A program made the translations under genes and the position numbers. A stretch of 64,000 bases of DNA from contig NZ_JACSNR010000002.1 of the NCBI RefSeq assembly GCF_016901815.1, positions 62,001 through 126,000 on the forward strand, written 5' to 3'. Under the pieces are notes generated by a model that saw only the letters and a program-made list of their open reading frames with translations, did no database searches and had not been told where the DNA came from. Of this stretch, positions 33,149-44,089 are shown one piece after another (within the stretch, counting starts at the first letter, position 1; each line of letters begins with the position of its first letter). The stretch is from Hydrogenoanaerobacterium saccharovorans (lineage in GTDB: Bacteria > Bacillota > Clostridia > Oscillospirales > Ruminococcaceae).

Positions 33149-36100
33149 TCAGATCTTGGTGATGTCGACCAGGTCCACATCGTTGATGGTTGTATCCATG
33201 AGCAGGCACTCGGTCAGAGCCATGGCAGTATCCACGGCAGTCAGACAGGCGATGGACCGCTCAACAGCCTTGCGGCGCATCTGCACCGAATGCTCAGCCG
33301 GCTTGCGTCCGGTGGCATTGGTGGAGATCAGGTAGTCGATCTTGTTCTCCTCGAACAGGTCGAGAATGTTCGGCGACGGCTCCTCGATCTTGCGCACCAC
33401 ATTGGCAGCGATCATGTTGCTGTTCAGGGTCTTGGCGGTACCGGCAGTAGCGTAGATGGTGAAGCCCAGCCGCTCGAACCGGTCTGCCACCTCGATGATC
33501 TCCTGCTTGTCGCCGTCCTTCACCGAGATCAGCACGCCGCCTTCCTTCTTCATCTTGTAGCCGGCTGCTACCAGGCCCTTGTAGAGAGCCTCCTCAAAGG
33601 TCTTGGCAATGCCCAGTACCTCACCGGTGGACTTCATCTCCGGTCCGAGCTGAATATCCACATCGTGCAGCTTTTCGAAGCTGAACACCGGTACCTTGAC
33701 AGCTACATAGTCGCCCTGAGGATAGAGGCCGGTGCCATAACCCAGGTCAGCCAGCTTTTCGCCCAGCATTACCTTGGTGGCGAGATCCACCATGGGCACA
33801 TTGGCAACCTTGCTGATATAGGGCACGGTACGGGAAGAACGGGGGTTTACTTCGATGACATAAACTTCGCCGTTATAAACCACATACTGGATGTTCACCA
33901 GGCCGACCACCTTCAGCGCACGGGCCAGACGACCGGTGTAGTCGATGATGGTGGCACGGACCTTCTGGCTCAGGGTCTGGGCCGGGTAAACCGAGATGGA
34001 GTCGCCCGAGTGGATACCGGCACGCTCGATATGCTGCATGATACCGGGGATCAGATAGTCGTTGCCGTCACAGATGGCATCGACTTCCACTTCGGTACCC
34101 ATGAGGTACTTGTCCACCAGGACGGGGTTCTCGATCTCATGAGAGGTGATGATACCCATGTACTCCCGGACATCCGACTCGGAATAGGCGATGATCATAT
34201 TCTGACCGCCCAGTACATAGGACGGACGCAGCAGCACCGGATAACCCAGCTCGTCAGCAGCCTTGACTGCTTCCTCAGTGGTAAATACGGTGGTACCCTT
34301 GGCACGCGGGATACCGCACTGCTCCAGCACCTCATCGAAGCGCTCCCGGTCCTCGGCGGCATCGATGCTGTCTGCCGAAGTACCCAGGATATTCACGCCC
34401 TTCTCCTGCAGATGCTTGGTGAGCTTGATGGCGGTCTGACCGCCGAACTGTACCACAGCACCCCAGGGCTTCTCGATCTCCAGAACGCTGTCCACATCTT
34501 CGGGGGTCAGCGGGTCAAAGTACAGACGGTCGGAGGTATCGAAGTCGGTGGATACGGTTTCGGGGTTGTTGTTGATGATGACAGCCTCGTAGCCGTGCTC
34601 CTTCAGCGCCCAGACACAGTGTACCGAGCAGTAGTCGAACTCGATGCCCTGTCCGATCCGGATGGGGCCGGAACCGAATACCAGGACCTTCTTCTTGTCG
34701 TTCTTGTTGCGCTCCAGGAAGATCTCCGCCTCGTTCTCCTCATCAAAGGTGGAGTAGAAGTAAGGGGTCTGGGCCTGGAATTCCGCAGCGCAGGTATCTA
34801 CCATCTTGTAGGCAGCCTTGCGGTGATACGGAGCGCAGCTCACGCCGGAAATGCGCTCGATGGTCTTGTCCAGGAAGCCGGCGTCCTTGGCCTCGAGATA
34901 GAGCTCGTTGTCCAGGCTGCCCTTCTCCAGCTCATGTTCGATGCGGGCCAGGTTCCACAGCTTGCCCAGGAACCACTTGTCGATCTTGGTGGCGGCATAG
35001 ATGGTATCAAAGTCGATGCCGCGGTAGAGTGCCTCGAATACGGCGAAGATACGCTCGTCGTCCTGCACATGCAGCAGTTCCCGGATCTCGTCGTCGGTCT
35101 TGTCGGCATTCTTGGGCAGACGCAGGGTGTCGAGACCCAGCTCGATGGAGCGGACCGCCTTCATAATGGCCTGCTCGAAGCTGGAACCGATGGACATTAC
35201 CTCACCGGTGGCCTTCATCTGGGTGCCCAGGGTACGCTTGCCGTATACAAACTTATCAAAGGGCCACTTGGGGAACTTGCAGACGATGTAGTCCACAGTG
35301 GGCTCGTTGCAGGCCCAGGTGGAACCGGTTACCGCGTTGCGGATCTCGTCCAGACGGTAGCCGATGGCGATCTTGGTGGCAACCTTGGCGATGGGATAAC
35401 CGGTGGCCTTGGAAGCCAGTGCCGACGAACGGGATACACGGGGGTTTACCTCAATGACGGCATATTCCTTGGAGCCCGGCTCCAGAGCGAACTGACAGTT
35501 GCAGCCGCCCTCAACGCCCAGCTCGTTTACAATGTCAATGGCAGCTTCCCGCAGCATGCCGAACTCCTCGGTGGAGAGACTCACTGCCGGAGCGATTACG
35601 ATGGAGTCACCGGTGTGGATGCCCACAGGGTCCATGTTCTCCATGGAGCAGACGGTGATGGAGTTGCCCACGCTGTCCCGGATGACCTCGAACTCGATCT
35701 CCTTCCAGCCGGAGATGCACTTTTCAACCAGGATCTGGGTAATGGGCGACAGACGCAGACCATTTTCAGCGATCTCATGGAGTTCTTCCATGGTGGTGGC
35801 AATACCGCCGCCGGTACCGCCCATGGTGAAGGCCGGACGGATGATGACAGGCAGGCCGATCTCCTCGGTGAAGGCGATGGCATCAGGCAGATTTTCCACA
35901 ACCTTGGAGGGGATACAGGGCTGACCGATCTTCTCCATGGTGTCCTTGAACATCTGGCGGTCCTCTGCCTTATCGATGGTGGAGCGCTTGGCACCCAGCA
36001 GACGCACATTGTGTTCCGCCAGGAAGCCGTCCTTATCCAGCTGCATCGACAGGGTCAGGCCGGTCTGTCCGCCCAGGGTGGAGAGCAGGCCATCGGGCTT

Positions 36101-36343
36101 TTCAATTTCAATGATGCGCTTGACCACATCCAGGGTCAGCGGTTCGATATAGACCTTGTCTGCCATGGCCTTATCGGTCATGATGGTAGCAGGGTTGGAG
36201 TTGACCAGTACCACTTCCAGTCCCTCTTCCTTGAGGGCCCGGCAGGCCTGGGTACCGGCATAGTCAAATTCGGCAGCCTGACCGATGATGATCGGACCAG
36301 AGCCGATTACCATTACTTTCTTCAGATCATTTCTCAGCGGCAT
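33149..36343 (-). CDS. carB: carbamoyl-phosphate synthase large subunit
   Basis: Makes carbamoyl phosphate from bicarbonate, ammonia and two ATP. At 1064 residues it has the full layout: two ATP-grasp halves (GSGPIIIGQAAEFDYAGTQACRAL in the first, GSGPIRIGQGIEFDYCSVHCVWAL in the second) and a C-terminal methylglyoxal-synthase-like regulatory domain (about the last 130 residues). It follows carA by five bases and is the last gene of the pyr operon. Nothing looks altered here, in contrast to carA. Ammonia normally arrives by a tunnel from CarA. Confidence 0.97.
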   Translation of the reverse strand: MPLRNDLKKVMVIGSGPIIIGQAAEFDYAGTQACRALKEEGLEVVLVNSNPATIMTDKAMADKVYIEPLTLDVVKRIIEIEKPDGLLSTLGGQTGLTLSMQLDKDGFLAEHNVRLLGAKRSTIDKAEDRQMFKDTMEKIGQPCIPSKVVENLPDAIAFTEEIGLPVIIRPAFTMGGTGGGIATTMEELHEIAENGLRLSPITQILVEKCISGWKEIEFEVIRDSVGNSITVCSMENMDPVGIHTGDSIVIAPAVSLSTEEFGMLREAAIDIVNELGVEGGCNCQFALEPGSKEYAVIEVNPRVSRSSALASKATGYPIAKVATKIAIGYRLDEIRNAVTGSTWACNEPTVDYIVCKFPKWPFDKFVYGKRTLGTQMKATGEVMSIGSSFEQAIMKAVRSIELGLDTLRLPKNADKTDDEIRELLHVQDDERIFAVFEALYRGIDFDTIYAATKIDKWFLGKLWNLARIEHELEKGSLDNELYLEAKDAGFLDKTIERISGVSCAPYHRKAAYKMVDTCAAEFQAQTPYFYSTFDEENEAEIFLERNKNDKKKVLVFGSGPIRIGQGIEFDYCSVHCVWALKEHGYEAVIINNNPETVSTDFDTSDRLYFDPLTPEDVDSVLEIEKPWGAVVQFGGQTAIKLTKHLQEKGVNILGTSADSIDAAEDRERFDEVLEQCGIPRAKGTTVFTTEEAVKAADELGYPVLLRPSYVLGGQNMIIAYSESDVREYMGIITSHEIENPVLVDKYLMGTEVEVDAICDGNDYLIPGIMQHIERAGIHSGDSISVYPAQTLSQKVRATIIDYTGRLARALKVVGLVNIQYVVYNGEVYVIEVNPRSSRTVPYISKVANVPMVDLATKVMLGEKLADLGYGTGLYPQGDYVAVKVPVFSFEKLHDVDIQLGPEMKSTGEVLGIAKTFEEALYKGLVAAGYKMKKEGGVLISVKDGDKQEIIEVADRFERLGFTIYATAGTAKTLNSNMIAANVVRKIEEPSPNILDLFEENKIDYLISTNATGRKPAEHSVQMRRKAVERSIACLTAVDTAMALTECLLMDTTINDVDLVDITKI

Positions 36344-36348
36344 TGTAC

Positions 36349-37440
36349 TCAGTTCCTCCCTGTCGACATCAGTTCCATAAACCGGCGATATACGGCGCCC
36401 TTATCCCGACCGCCTACCACACTCTCGGGATTGTACTGTACCGAGAAGGCCGGCATTCCATCATAGACAATGGCGGCAGTGGTATCATCGTTGAGGTTCT
36501 TTTCAGTGACCTTTGCAAAGGCCGGCAGGCTGTCCGCCTTGACCGCATAGCTGTGGTTCTGGGTGGTGACATACACATGACCGGTCTCCAGGTTCTTCAC
36601 CGGCTGGTTGGCGCCCCGGTGACCATGGAGCAGCTTTTCACAGGCAGCGCCCTGGCTCAGTGCCATGAGCTGGTGACCCAGCCCCAGGCCCAGTACCGGT
36701 CTGCCCGACTCCATCAGAGCCTTGACTGCCGGCAGATACTTCTCACAGGCAGCGGGATCGCCGGGGCCCTCGGAGAGGACATAGCCATCGCACTTCACTG
36801 CCAGCAGCTCCTCCACCGGAGTAGTGCAGGGCAGGACAGTCACGCCGATGCCATAGTGGTTAAGGGCAGCCACCGAGCCGTTTCTCCGGCCAAAGTCCAC
36901 CATGCAGACATGCTTCTTCTCCTCTGCTGCCGGGTACTCGCCGCCGGCAGACACAACGCTTTCCACAGCCTTTTCCATCTTCCAGGAGCGGATCTGTTCC
37001 AGCACCTCAGCGGTGGGCTCCAGATGCTCGGTGGAGATCATGGCGTTCATGGAACCGAAGTCCCGGATATGCCGGGTGATGGCACGGGTATCCACATCTT
37101 CGATGCCCACAACGCCCTGCTCAGTCACGAACTGACCGAGGGTTTCGGTCATCTTGTAGTTGGAAGGCAGCTCGGTGACGCTGCGTACCACATAGCCGCT
37201 GAGATGGCAGCGGTCGGAGGCATAGTCGTCCTTGTTGACGCCGTAGCCGCCCACAGACGGGAAGGTCTGCACCACGATCTGACCAAAATTGGAGGGATCA
37301 GTCAGGGTTTCCTGGAAGCCGGATACACCGGTGGTGAATACGATCTCACCAAAGACAGTGCCGGCAGCGCCGAAGCTCACACCCCGGTAAACAGTCCCGT
37401 CGGCCAGAATCAGCGCGGCGGATTTACGATTTTCGCTCAT
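36349..37440 (-). CDS. carA: carbamoyl-phosphate synthase small subunit lacking the glutaminase catalytic Cys and His
   Basis: The family hydrolyses glutamine to feed ammonia to CarB. The 363-residue protein has the CarA N-terminal domain (TTGVSGFQETLTDPSNFGQIV) and a class I amidotransferase domain (SEGPGDP, QNHSYAV). The nucleophile elbow, normally G-[IL]-C-L-G-H-Q, reads GLGLGHQ: residue 253 is Gly (codon GGG). The catalytic His, normally in Q-[GY]-H-P-E, is Asn337 (codon AAT) in QYNPES; Glu339 is kept. Two independent codon changes argue against a read error. I expect no glutaminase activity; the subunit may remain as a structural partner of an ammonia-using CarB. I chose ATG 37440, ten bases after AGGAGG, over a TTG six bases earlier. 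Confidence 0.93.
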   Translation of the reverse strand: MSENRKSAALILADGTVYRGVSFGAAGTVFGEIVFTTGVSGFQETLTDPSNFGQIVVQTFPSVGGYGVNKDDYASDRCHLSGYVVRSVTELPSNYKMTETLGQFVTEQGVVGIEDVDTRAITRHIRDFGSMNAMISTEHLEPTAEVLEQIRSWKMEKAVESVVSAGGEYPAAEEKKHVCMVDFGRRNGSVAALNHYGIGVTVLPCTTPVEELLAVKCDGYVLSEGPGDPAACEKYLPAVKALMESGRPVLGLGLGHQLMALSQGAACEKLLHGHRGANQPVKNLETGHVYVTTQNHSYAVKADSLPAFAKVTEKNLNDDTTAAIVYDGMPAFSVQYNPESVVGGRDKGAVYRRFMELMSTGRN

Positions 37441-37467: not shown

Positions 37468-38397
37468 TTAGAGTCGGATTTCGGGAAGGTACTGGGTGAT
37501 GTCGTCCCGCATGCGGATCGCCTCGTCCCGGGCGGCAGCGGCATATTCGCTGCCGGGACGGTTCTGCTTCTGCCAGGCAGTGAGAACCGCACGGGAGGAG
37601 TTGACGATGGCACCGAGGCCCTTCTCATCAAAGGCGCCGATGACATCCTTGGCGCCGCCGCCCTGGGCACCATAGCCGGGTACCAGCAGGAAGGTGTGCG
37701 GCATGGCCTTGCGCATCTCAGCCAGCTGCTCGGGATAGGTAGCGCCTACCACAGCGCCCACAGCCGAGTAACCCAGCTCACCCATGCAGCTCTCGCCCCA
37801 CTTCTCGCACATCTCACCCATGGCGGCGTAGAGGGGACGGCCTTCCAGGCTGCGGTCCTGCAGCTCGCCGGAAGAGGGGTTGGAAGTCTTGACCAGTACA
37901 AAGATACCGGCGTCCTTCTTGACGCAGATGTCGGTGAGCGGAGAGATCCCATCGGTGCCCAGGTAACCGTTTACAGTGAGGGCATCGCCGCCGAAGGGAG
38001 TGTAAACCTCGCCTTCCACCTCCACATCGCCCAGGTGGGCCACTGCATAGGCAGTCATAGTGGAGCCGATGTCATTGCGCTTGCCGTCGATGATGACGAA
38101 CATGCCCTTTTCCTTGGCATAGGCAATGGTTTCAGCCAGTGCCTTCATGCCCTGCCAGCCGAACCGCTCATAGAAAGCGCACTGGGGCTTGACGGCGGGA
38201 ACCACATCACAGATGGCATCGATAATACCCTTGTTGAAGCTGAGAATGGCTTCAGCAGCGCCTTCCAGGGTCTTGCCGTACTTGGCATAGGCCTCTGCCT
38301 TCAGTTCTTCGGGGATATATTCCAGCTTGGGGTCCAGACCCACTACGGTGGGGTTCTTGGTTTCCACGATCTTTCGGATCAGTCGGTCAAATGACAT
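37468..38397 (-). CDS. pyrF: orotidine 5'-phosphate decarboxylase (type 2)
   Basis: Last step of UMP synthesis. The 309-residue length and opening NPTVVGLDPKLEYIPEEL mark the longer type 2 form. The catalytic Lys-Asp array is in VIIDGKRNDIGSTM (about residues 101-114). It lies between pyrC and carA, 22 to 55 bases from its neighbours. The start is ATG 38397 with GGAGGAGAA upstream. Confidence 0.96.
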   Translation of the reverse strand: MSFDRLIRKIVETKNPTVVGLDPKLEYIPEELKAEAYAKYGKTLEGAAEAILSFNKGIIDAICDVVPAVKPQCAFYERFGWQGMKALAETIAYAKEKGMFVIIDGKRNDIGSTMTAYAVAHLGDVEVEGEVYTPFGGDALTVNGYLGTDGISPLTDICVKKDAGIFVLVKTSNPSSGELQDRSLEGRPLYAAMGEMCEKWGESCMGELGYSAVGAVVGATYPEQLAEMRKAMPHTFLLVPGYGAQGGGAKDVIGAFDEKGLGAIVNSSRAVLTAWQKQNRPGSEYAAAARDEAIRMRDDITQYLPEIRL

Positions 38398-38452: not shown

Positions 38453-39727
38453 TTACTTCTTGAGCTGCCAGGTGATCTCGCCGCCCTTGATGGTGCAGTG
38501 TACCCGGCCGGTGAATTCGGTGCCCAGGAACGGGGTATTCCGGGACTTGGAGCCGATGTCTGCCTCGGTGAAGGTCCAGCGCTCCTCCGGGGCCAGCAGC
38601 ACCAGGTCTGCCGGGCCGCCCACCCTGATCTCGCCGCCGGGGATCGAAAGAATCCGGCAGGGATTGACGCTCATCAGTTCAATGAGCCGGGCCAGGCTCA
38701 TCCGGCCCGAGGCCACCAGAGCTGTGCAGCTGGCTGCGAAGCTGGTTTCCAGGCCGATGATACCGTTGGGGGCCTTTTCAAAGTCGGCCTTCTCCTCCGG
38801 GGAGTGGGGAGCGTGGTCGGTGATCATCGCATCGATGGTCCCATCGCAGAAGCCCTCAATGATGGCTTCGCAGTCCCGCTGTTCCCGGAGCGGGGGATTC
38901 ATGCGCCAGTTGGCGTCCCGCCGCAGCAGTTCCTTGTCGGTGAGCAGCATATAGTGGGGAGCACTCTCGCAGGTGACCTGTACGCCCCGCTTCTTGGCGT
39001 CCCGGATCAGCGCCACCGAAGTTTCGGTGGACACATGGCAGATGTGGATGCGGGTGCCGGTGCTCTCTGCCAGGGTCACTTCCCGGGCAGTGATGGTGTC
39101 CTCACTGGTGCGGTCCATGCCCTTGACCCCCAGCGCCTCGGACACAGCACCCTTGTTGATGATGCCTCCGGCGATGATGTCCAGATCCTCGCAGTGGCTC
39201 ACCACCGGCAGATCCAGCTTGTAACAGGCTTCCATACCCGCCTGCATCACTGCGGCATTGGCTACCGGCTTGCCGTCATCACTGGCGGCAACCGCTCCGG
39301 CTGCCTTCAGCGCCGCAAAATCGCTGAGCTCGGTGCCCTTCATGCCCCGGGTGATGGTGCACACCGGATAGACCCGGGCTTTGGCATGTTCCGCCTTTTC
39401 CAGAATGTAGCGGATGGTATCGGTATTATCAATGGGGGGATTGGTATTGGGCATGCATACCACTGAGGTGAATCCGCCCCGGGCTGCCGCTTCACAGCCG
39501 GTGAGGATATCCTCCTTATAGGTCAGGCCCGGGTCCCGCAGATGGACATGCATATCCACCAGACCGGGAGCCAGCACCAGACCGTCTGCCTCCAGGACGG
39601 TGTCCGCCTGGGTGCGGGTGCTGTCCAGTTCGGTGATGACGCCGTTTTCCACATAGACATTCATCACACGGTCAAGGTCATTTGCCGGGGAAAGTACCCG
39701 GGCATTGCGAATCAGGATACTGCTCAA
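38453..39727 (-). CDS. pyrC: dihydroorotase
   Basis: Class I dihydroorotase that closes carbamoyl aspartate. The metal motif DMHVHLRDPG is near residue 56; further ligands are in the SHCED and ICHVST segments and the catalytic Asp in ITDHAPHS. The best start is a TTG at 39727 seven bases after GGAGG, giving MSSILIRNARVLSP and 424 residues. A GTG further up (39745) would overlap the Shine-Dalgarno itself. No pyrB (aspartate transcarbamylase) lies in the operon; it must be elsewhere. Confidence 0.95.
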   Translation of the reverse strand: MSSILIRNARVLSPANDLDRVMNVYVENGVITELDSTRTQADTVLEADGLVLAPGLVDMHVHLRDPGLTYKEDILTGCEAAARGGFTSVVCMPNTNPPIDNTDTIRYILEKAEHAKARVYPVCTITRGMKGTELSDFAALKAAGAVAASDDGKPVANAAVMQAGMEACYKLDLPVVSHCEDLDIIAGGIINKGAVSEALGVKGMDRTSEDTITAREVTLAESTGTRIHICHVSTETSVALIRDAKKRGVQVTCESAPHYMLLTDKELLRRDANWRMNPPLREQRDCEAIIEGFCDGTIDAMITDHAPHSPEEKADFEKAPNGIIGLETSFAASCTALVASGRMSLARLIELMSVNPCRILSIPGGEIRVGGPADLVLLAPEERWTFTEADIGSKSRNTPFLGTEFTGRVHCTIKGGEITWQLKK

Positions 39728-39741
39728 AATCTTCCCTCCTG

Positions 39742-40266
39742 TCACTTTACAATGGCTACGCAGTCCTCAGGACCGCCGTCTGCCTGGACCTCCACCATCT
39801 CCTCCTTGGAGGTGGGCAGGTTCTTGCCGATGAAGTCCGCCCGGATGGGCAGCTCCCGGTGGCCCCGGTCCACCAGGATCGCCAGCTGGATGTTCCGGGG
39901 GCGTCCCCGGCTCATAATGGCATCGATGGCAGCCCGGACACTGCGTCCGGTATAGATTACATCATCAATGAGCACCACACGCTTCCCGTCAATGGAGAAA
40001 TCCAGGCGGGAATGGTCCTCATAGCCCTCCGGCGCGCTGCCGTCGTCCCGGAACAGGGTGATGTCCAGTTCCCCGCATTCCACCGGACGGTTTTCGATCT
40101 CTCCGATGCGGTCAGCGATCCGACGGGCCAGTACGGCGCCGCCGCTGCGGATGCCGATCAGACACAGATCCTCCGCACCCCGGTTGCGCTCTACGATCTC
40201 AAAGGAGATCCGGGTAATTGCCCGGCTGATGGCCTGGGCGTCCATAATTACGGTTTTTTCCGCCAT
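39742..40266 (-). CDS. pyrR: bifunctional pyr operon regulator / uracil phosphoribosyltransferase
   Basis: PyrR binds a pyr-mRNA loop when UMP is high and promotes termination; it is also a weak uracil phosphoribosyltransferase. The PRPP-binding motif VVLIDDVIYTGRSVRAAI is near residue 95. I chose ATG 40266 (MAEKTVIMDAQAI); upstream codons overlap the attenuator terminator. It is the first gene of the operon and overlaps nothing else. Its target site is directly upstream. Confidence 0.95.
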   Translation of the reverse strand: MAEKTVIMDAQAISRAITRISFEIVERNRGAEDLCLIGIRSGGAVLARRIADRIGEIENRPVECGELDITLFRDDGSAPEGYEDHSRLDFSIDGKRVVLIDDVIYTGRSVRAAIDAIMSRGRPRNIQLAILVDRGHRELPIRADFIGKNLPTSKEEMVEVQADGGPEDCVAIVK

Positions 40267-40293
40267 AACTGCGGTTTCCTCCCCTCCGGCTGC

Positions 40294-40329
40294 AAAAAGA
40301 AAAAGCCTTATCCGCATGGCAGATAAGGC
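40294..40329 (-). terminator. pyr attenuator terminator
   Basis: Perfect 8-bp GCCTTATC/GATAAGGC stem (40305-40329) followed on the minus strand by TTTTTCTTTTT. It sits in the leader, just before pyrR, so it must be conditional. Confidence 0.85.
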
Positions 40330-42118: not shown

Positions 42119-44089
42119 TCAGTAGAGCTTGGCGCCGGCGGGGATGCGGTCGTCCACCATCAGCAGATTGAGCCCTTCCTTGCCGTCCTCACTGTGTACG
42201 GCGCTGATAAGCATGCCGCAGGAGTCGATGCCCATCATCTTCCGGGGCAGCAGGTTGGTGATGGCAATCAGGGTCTTGCCCACCAGCTCCTCCGGCTCAT
42301 AGTACTCATGGATGCCGCTGAGGATCACACGGTCCTCACCCGAGCCATCGTCCAGCACGAACTTGAGCAGCTTCTTGCTCTTGGGCACTGCCTCACAGGC
42401 CTTGACCTTCACAACCCGGTAATCCGACTTGGCAAAGGTCTCGTAGTCGATCATATCCTGGAACAGCGGCTCGATCTCCACCTTGGAGAAGTCTGTCGGC
42501 TCTGTGACTGCTTCCTTCATGGGAACCGCAGCCGGAGCGGCAGCTGCTGCCTTTTCCTCCCGGCGGTCACCGGTGCCCAGCGGCTTCATGGTGGGGAACA
42601 GAATTACTTCCCGGATTGTATCCGAGTTGGTGAGCATCATGACTGCACGGTCAATGCCCATGCCCATACCACCCGTGGGCGGCATGGCGTATTCCAGTGC
42701 CATGAGGAAGTCCTCATCCAGCATCTCAGTTTCATCATCGCCGCGGTCACGCAGTTCCACCTGCTTTTCAAACCGCTGACGCTGGTCGATGGGATCGTTG
42801 AGCTCGGAATAGGCGTTTGCCAGCTCGCTGTGGCAGACAAACAGCTCGAACCGCTCGGTCAGGCGGGGGTCCTTGGGGCTGCGCTTGGTCAGCGGGGATA
42901 CCTCCACCGGATACATGGTGATGAAAGTCGGCTGGATCAGCCTCTCTTCTACCTTCTGATCGAAGCAGGCATAGAGTGCGTTGCCCCAGGTCTTGTCGGC
43001 AGTTTCAGCCAGCTCCACGCCCACGGCCTTGGCAGCAGCCACAGCTTCAGCATCGTCGGTGATGGCATCAAAGTCAATGCCCACATACTCCCGTACGGCC
43101 TCTACCATGGTCAGACGGCGCCAGCCGGGGGTCAGGTCGATGGTCTCGCCCTGCCACTGGATCTCATAGGTGCCCAGGATCTCCTTGGCAGCGCCCGAGA
43201 GAATGCCCTCGGCAATATCCATCATGCCATGGAAATCAGTGTAGGCCTGGTAGAGCTCCACCGTGGTGAATTCGGGGTTGTGCTTGGGGTCCATGCCCTC
43301 ATTGCGGAAGATGCGTCCGATCTCATAGACGCGCTCCATACCACCCACGATCAGACGCTTCAGCGGCAGCTCGGTGGCGATGCGCATATACATATCAATG
43401 TCCAGCGTATTGTGATGGGTGATGAACGGACGGGCAGCGGCACCGCCGGCAATGGTATTGAGCACCGGGGTTTCCACTTCGATATAGCCCATATCGTCCA
43501 GATAGCTGCGCATGAACTTGATGAACTTGGAACGGGTGATGAAGGTCTTCTTCACATCGGGGTTCACCATCAGGTCCAGATAGCGCTGACGGTACCGGGC
43601 ATCGGTGTCCTTAAGGCCATGCCACTTTTCCGGCAGCGGACGCAGGCTCTTGGAGAGCAGGGTCAGCTTTTCAGCCTTCACCGAGATCTCACCCCGGCGG
43701 GTGCGGAATACTTCGCCTTCCACGCCGATGATGTCGCCCAGGTCCCACTTGCCGAACTGACGGAAAGCTTCCTCGCCGATCTCATTGATCTTTACATAGA
43801 TCTGGATGCGGCCGCTGCCATCCTGCAGGTCGATGAAGTTGGCCTTACCCATATCACGCCAGCTCATAATACGGCCGGCAATGGATACATGACGGCCCTC
43901 AAAGCCATTGTCAAAGCCATCCACAATTTCCTTGGCATGGGCATCTACATCAAAACGGGTGATCTCATAGGGATTCTGACCCGATTCCATCAGTTCATTG
44001 AGCTTGTTCCGTCGGATCTGGAGCAGTTCCGAAAGGCTCTCGCCGGTCTGAACTTCCTCCTGTACGGGGGTATTGTTCCGTTCACTCAT
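42119..44089 (-). CDS. lysS: lysyl-tRNA synthetase (class II) fused to a C-terminal tRNA-binding domain
   Basis: The first about 500 residues are a normal class II LysRS: OB-fold anticodon domain, motif 2 region FRNEGMDPKHNPEFT and motif 3 GGMGMGIDRAVM. After an Ala/Pro/Glu linker of about 30 residues comes a domain of about 115 residues (SDYRVVKVKACEAVPKSKKL, LPRKMMGIDSCGMLISA) of the MetG-C/Trbp111/EMAP-II type, which binds tRNA outside the anticodon. LysRS is usually about 500 residues, so 656 reflects a true fusion. GGGAGTG-type Shine-Dalgarno lies before ATG 44089. Confidence 0.95.
   Translation of the reverse strand: MSERNNTPVQEEVQTGESLSELLQIRRNKLNELMESGQNPYEITRFDVDAHAKEIVDGFDNGFEGRHVSIAGRIMSWRDMGKANFIDLQDGSGRIQIYVKINEIGEEAFRQFGKWDLGDIIGVEGEVFRTRRGEISVKAEKLTLLSKSLRPLPEKWHGLKDTDARYRQRYLDLMVNPDVKKTFITRSKFIKFMRSYLDDMGYIEVETPVLNTIAGGAAARPFITHHNTLDIDMYMRIATELPLKRLIVGGMERVYEIGRIFRNEGMDPKHNPEFTTVELYQAYTDFHGMMDIAEGILSGAAKEILGTYEIQWQGETIDLTPGWRRLTMVEAVREYVGIDFDAITDDAEAVAAAKAVGVELAETADKTWGNALYACFDQKVEERLIQPTFITMYPVEVSPLTKRSPKDPRLTERFELFVCHSELANAYSELNDPIDQRQRFEKQVELRDRGDDETEMLDEDFLMALEYAMPPTGGMGMGIDRAVMMLTNSDTIREVILFPTMKPLGTGDRREEKAAAAAPAAVPMKEAVTEPTDFSKVEIEPLFQDMIDYETFAKSDYRVVKVKACEAVPKSKKLLKFVLDDGSGEDRVILSGIHEYYEPEELVGKTLIAITNLLPRKMMGIDSCGMLISAVHSEDGKEGLNLLMVDDRIPAGAKLY

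Follow-up and report, generated by a model that had tools for sequence, protein, structure and literature searches.

The 64,000-nucleotide window analysed here, from Hydrogenoanaerobacterium saccharovorans, carries a pyrimidine operon in the order pyrR-pyrC-pyrF-carA-carB, with all genes in the same direction. The genes carA and carB, for the two subunits of carbamoyl-phosphate synthase (CPS), are separate reading frames and not a single-chain fusion of the CPS I type. The features are as follows.

33149..36343, minus strand: carB, the large synthetase subunit, 1064 aa, intact and unfused (1498 bits to NF003671)
36349..37440, minus strand: carA, a 363-aa CPS small subunit that lacks the Cys and His of the glutaminase (curated family models and structure alignment)
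36424..36426, minus strand: codon 339 of carA, retained Glu (equivalent to E. coli Glu355)
36430..36432, minus strand: codon 337 of carA, AAT (Asn), aligned with E. coli His353
36682..36684, minus strand: codon 253 of carA, GGG (Gly), aligned with E. coli Cys269 in the nucleophile elbow
37468..38397, minus strand: pyrF, orotidine-5'-phosphate decarboxylase (TIGR02127)
38453..39745, minus strand: pyrC, dihydroorotase (TIGR00857)
39742..40317, minus strand: pyrR, pyr operon regulator (NF003549)

Elsewhere in the window (42119-44089, minus strand) lies a lysyl-tRNA synthetase with a MetG-like C-terminal tRNA-binding domain (TIGR00399, region 535-654).

The carA frame spans 363 codons from an ATG at 37440 on the minus strand, and its product scores 372 bits against the curated model NF009475 and 369 bits against TIGR01368, above their respective cut-offs of 221 and 307, with PF00988 and PF00117 both over cut-off as well. 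By alignment to PDB sequences, residue 253 is equivalent to C269 of E. coli CarA (reference entry 1c30, titled as a C269S mutant) and residue 337 to H353. Gly253 stands in place of the nucleophile Cys and Asn337 in place of the catalytic His; the codons GGG and AAT and the alignment agree with the original prediction on both replacements. Glu339, Gly225, Gly227, His256 and Gln257 are retained in the same alignment. The prediction had also held Glu339 and the rest of the fold to be intact, and this is borne out by an AlphaFold model with a mean pLDDT of 95.9, which superposes on E. coli CarA (1cs0_B and 1c30_B) with Z 50.7 and rmsd 1.7 over 356 residues, and on human CPS1 over 344 residues with Z 46.1. 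The model shows a predicted fold undamaged outside the glutaminase site, which speaks to structure and not to function. Passages of PMC6245113 describe Cys269 and His353 as required for glutamine hydrolysis in E. coli, so the window CarA should be without glutaminase activity.

A single carA over the TIGR01368 cut-off is present in the assembly from which the window comes (2.35 Mb, 99.58% complete, 0.08% contamination), and the intact second copy that would have spoken against the prediction was not found in the genome at that cut-off. TIGR01368 gives two more matches, GuaA and a C26-type hydrolase, while the PF00117 proteins of the genome number four, namely CarA, GuaA and two C26-type enzymes (gamma-glutamyl hydrolases). 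A wider loss among class I amidotransferases was considered and rejected, since GuaA and both C26-type enzymes retain the Cys and the HPE motif; the loss is thus specific to CarA. PyrB and PyrE are over cut-off, and a type III glutamine synthetase is present. The genome encodes one transcarbamylase, an aspartate carbamoyltransferase that carries a PyrI-like zinc tail; a match to ornithine carbamoyltransferase was not found in it. Because the sole transcarbamylase is of the aspartate type, carbamoyl phosphate most likely serves pyrimidines only in this organism. As a separate observation, it is the PyrB catalytic chain itself that bears this PyrI-like zinc-binding tail (PF02748; L258:9563-10663, G000:C2).

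Within the genus, Gly occupies position 253 in 3/3 genomes, at 68-72% protein identity, and the order pyrR-pyrC-pyrF-carA-carB is retained in both other genomes, at the same CarA identity. The His is replaced by Asn, Glu or Phe, depending on the genome, so it is the loss that is conserved and not the replacement residue. Relatives possessing both Cys and His had been named as a possible refutation, and all three genus genomes lack both residues; of the two substitutions, that of the Cys is conserved in the genus (Gly in 3/3), and the His is replaced differently each time. Among 80 loci from a genome collection, picked by similarity to the window CarA, nine lacked the Cys, including two from this genus. 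The family sample comprised 119 genomes, 101 with CarA at E 1e-40 or better, and 111 of its 112 CarA matches were read, leaving out a C-terminal fragment in G016. Cys-less CarA was the only form in 14 of the 101 genomes and accompanied a Cys copy in a further 8; among three other two-match genomes, two had Cys in both copies and the third had the unread fragment as its second match. Five of the 14 Cys-less-only genomes are less than 90% complete (G003, G024, G041, G059 and G086), so a second carA could be hidden there. The phylum sample comprised 299 genomes, 214 with CarA, of which 27 were read, hand-picked among the low-scoring (G341 left out, G157 unreadable at the site); 15 of these 27 low-scoring genomes, from 11 other families, had Cys-less CarA only, a lower bound for the phylum. 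Outside the window, carB adjoins 28 of 29 Cys-less carA loci. The change, which the original prediction had framed as that of one lineage, is therefore wider, recurring independently in many families of the phylum.

The number of origins was assessed on a CarA tree of 190 rows, 30 of them Cys-less, with active-site columns excluded; it is a quick tree with long branches, on which single placements are less trustworthy. The Cys state requires 14 changes on this tree, 8 of them forced by starred branches, and in a 61-row subset (12 changes) a tree that groups all Cys-less rows together was rejected (AU p 1.8e-47). The nucleophile appears to have been lost many times independently among relatives. 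A Cys-less paralogue clade, as suggested by the two-copy genomes, was rejected on the same grounds, the Cys-less rows being scattered on the tree and their single grouping rejected in the 61-row subset.

Constraint on the two subunits was compared at 116 loci whose CarB reaches at least 1000 aa, of which 27 are Cys-less and 89 have the Cys. On average, CarB lay about equally far from Cys-type relatives at Cys-less and Cys loci (mean distance 0.478 vs 0.475), whereas distance in the CarA glutaminase domain was 0.939 vs 0.584 (residual test p 4e-15), with the CarA N-terminal domain less affected (0.756 vs 0.636). Of 305 CarB columns with 97% or higher conservation among Cys-type relatives, the window CarB deviates at 4, and no CarB change unique to Cys-less lineages was found in the comparison. 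With CarB showing no extra drift, decay of the whole complex is not borne out. Cys-less lineages have a higher overall rate of CarA evolution, which a gene in decay would show as well.

Within CarA, 67 columns with at least 97% conservation among Cys rows were scored across the 30 Cys-less rows, and 30 of the 67 never change, including G225, H256, Q294, H296 and D318. Departures occur at residue 50 (E. coli Ser47) in 17 rows, at 224 in 24, at 337 in 26, at 339 in 13 and at 343 (Gly359) in 15, while Asn295 departs in one row and Gly227 in two. Position 253 itself is Gly in 24 rows and Ser in 4, with Ala and Asp in the remainder; Gly is the residue expected there if the tight elbow turn is still under selection. 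Cys-less lineages are thus characterized by drifting glutaminase residues, fixed scaffold residues and a CarB constrained as elsewhere. The catalytic His is retained in 4 of the 30 Cys-less rows and replaced in none of the 160 Cys rows, one of which is unreadable because its contig ends. Since the His survives in some Cys-less rows whereas a Cys row without it does not occur among the readable ones, the Cys seems, from these alignments, to have been lost first and other glutaminase residues later.

We consider it probable, at roughly 0.7, that carAB encodes an ammonia-fed CPS in which CarA is retained as a scaffold, convergent with vertebrate CPS I. CarA would keep its fold and its contacts with CarB while lacking the thiol nucleophile and the general base, so that the glutamyl-thioester could not form. 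CarB, with both ATP-grasp halves retained, would most likely draw ammonia from solution, perhaps, as a guess, by way of the empty glutaminase pocket, and its carbamoyl phosphate would pass to PyrB and the pyrimidine operon. In relatives, repeated loss of the Cys would have been followed by drift of the remaining glutaminase residues. The original prediction that glutamine hydrolysis is lost and CarA persists as a structural partner is well supported at the level of sequence, given that only glutaminase-site residues are relaxed, CarB is constrained and carA is single. The use of free ammonia, most likely by likeness to vertebrate CPS I, is the weakest part of this explanation. The E. coli enzyme, according to passages of PMC6245113, requires very high and probably unphysiological concentrations of ammonia, so either a better CarB affinity or high cytosolic ammonium would be required. 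An advantage in an ammonia-rich hindgut can be guessed at.

Several known systems resemble this arrangement in part. Vertebrate CPS1 retains the small-chain fold with a broken glutaminase triad, as does the window CarA. CPS1 is a single chain of the urea cycle, activated by N-acetylglutamate. In contrast, the window CPS is encoded by two bacterial genes in a pyrimidine operon, and its kind of loss has occurred many times independently. The absence of the catalytic Cys from vertebrate CPS I and its use of free ammonia are described in parts of PMC7657897, which also report a shift from glutamine to ammonia through glutaminase-site damage in Alcolapia fish CPS III and frog CPS I. Glutaminase-site damage is common to these and the window CarA; however, in the fish and frog enzymes the triad stays and glutamine-binding residues change, whereas in the window CarA the triad is lost. 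E. coli CarAB is a member of this enzyme family, its CarA matching the window CarA at rmsd 1.7 and 38-39% identity across 356 residues. The C269S, H353N and G359F mutants made from it in the laboratory offer a close parallel, the window CarA being changed at the C269 and H353 positions, although here both catalytic residues are missing in the wild type. The residue equivalent to Gly359 is also changed in half of the Cys-less relatives, and the G359F mutation reportedly opens an escape route for ammonia (work on structure 1m6v). Archaeal carbamate-kinase-like and other routes make carbamoyl phosphate from ammonia (PMC6245113, PMC13260591). They share with the reaction proposed for the window CPS a prokaryotic setting and free ammonia as the nitrogen source, but they use unrelated enzymes, neither CarA nor CarB.

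An alternative is that de novo pyrimidine synthesis is being abandoned in a life of salvage, the glutaminase being lost first and carAB next. Evidence in its favor concerns CTP synthase. PyrG is absent from the window's 99.6% complete genome despite the de novo pyrimidine operon, which leaves the pyrimidine route of this genome open-ended and counts against the ammonia-fed reading. It is also absent from 22 other genomes of the 119 in the family, and within the family its absence is concentrated in Cys-less-only genomes (11/14 vs 4/87 other CarA genomes; Fisher p 2.8e-9). The four genomes that lack PyrG and possess a Cys CarA are G019, G043, G054 and G108, the last two of which also carry a Cys-less copy. 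At the thresholds used, CarA and PyrG are both absent from 8 of 119 family genomes, four of which are more than 90% complete or near it (G078, G106 and G107 among them), which suggests pyrimidine auxotrophs within the same family. As a separate association, a type I glutamine synthetase match, with the split set by hand at E 1e-40, was absent from more Cys-less than Cys single-CarA genomes (11/14 vs 22/77, p 6e-4). Among independent pairs on the CarA tree, about 4 of 6 agreed with the direction of the PyrG association and none opposed it (sign test, median p 0.125, not significant); the same comparison for glutamine synthetase also fell short of significance (median p 0.125). Against disuse, CarB is under the same constraint as in Cys lineages and frames are open, the operon order persists in both other genus genomes at 68-72% CarA identity, and PyrB and PyrE are still present. 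Outside the family, PyrG was found in 15/15 Cys-less-only genomes, so its loss is not part of a general syndrome, and a pyrimidine-wide loss of glutamine use was rejected as a general rule for the same reason. Overall, we regard disuse as unlikely.

Supply of ammonia in trans by another glutaminase, such that the complex would still be glutamine-fed, is considerably less probable. The type III glutamine synthetase and the two C26-type gamma-glutamyl hydrolases retained in the genome would fit such a supply; nonetheless, beyond CarA itself the PF00117 matches in the genome are limited to GuaA and the two C26 enzymes, none of which adjoins carAB, and the docking site for a replacement glutaminase is still taken by CarA. 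Slightly more improbable again is that a new residue serves as nucleophile and CarA still hydrolyses glutamine. The window CarA does retain the oxyanion and glutamine-site residues Gly225, Gly227, Gln257 and Asn295, but His337 is lost too, with many different residues at that position, Ser50 departs in 17 of the 30 Cys-less rows, and no new residue is common to these rows except Gly at 253. A sequencing or assembly artefact has a negligible probability even with relatives that are often draft or metagenome assemblies, as GGG lies two positions from either Cys codon, which excludes a single miscalled base, the frame is intact, and three genus genomes and many other genera agree.

Returning to an ammonia-fed CPS, genomes with one copy of each type show how the two are placed. 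Of these 8 mixed genomes, 7 have the Cys-less copy beside pyrC and pyrF or pyrR; in the eighth, G074, no pyr gene occurs around it in the 17.8 kb examined. Around all 8 Cys partner copies, pyrR, pyrB, pyrC and pyrF are absent within the stretch examined. A dapF-like gene or fusion is found at 5 of these 8 partners, two of which (L165 and L176) have no detected carB. Among the Cys-less-only genomes (the 14 plus G001), 11 of 15 have a pyr context, three a carB-dapF fusion and one a position beside argF. Cys CarA also occurs in pyr operons at 39 loci, so the Cys state is not dictated by the operon. It is conceivable, though rather doubtful, that bacterial carbamoyl-phosphate synthesis has repeatedly been freed from glutamine, that in two-copy genomes nitrogen sources are split by pathway, usually with an ammonia-type copy for the pyr operon and a glutamine-type copy elsewhere, and that in this family loss of CTP synthase, the second pyrimidine enzyme dependent on glutamine, completes a glutamine-free pyrimidine route, CTP coming from cytidine salvage or a new enzyme.

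The prediction that this bacterial form was undescribed agrees with the open-licence literature, in which no description of a bacterial CarA without its Cys was found. Glutamine is the physiological nitrogen donor of E. coli CPS, a rule extended to all bacterial CPSases in passages of PMC6245113. If the ammonia-fed reading is true, this rule fails for a sizeable minority of genomes in the phylum, even though the curated glutamine-hydrolysing model still recognizes their carA, and pathway models that charge the two-subunit bacterial CPS to glutamine would be wrong for these gut bacteria. The 8 or more independent losses would then constitute a natural replicate series of the step between glutamine-type CPS and CPS I, allowing the question of which changes let a synthetase live on free ammonia.

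Two further features were observed among the loci surveyed. In 22 of 111 family loci CarB and a diaminopimelate epimerase form one chain, with the epimerase at the C-terminus (PF01678 at 170 bits in L145:435-4490 and at 165 bits in L060:7055-11125, with others in the family), a fusion on which nothing was found in the open-licence literature; the window CarB is unfused. Some phylum loci (L232-L234, L242, L229 and L230) have CarA matches inside open frames of 559-1049 aa, either fusions or merely long stretches free of stops, with the Cys retained.
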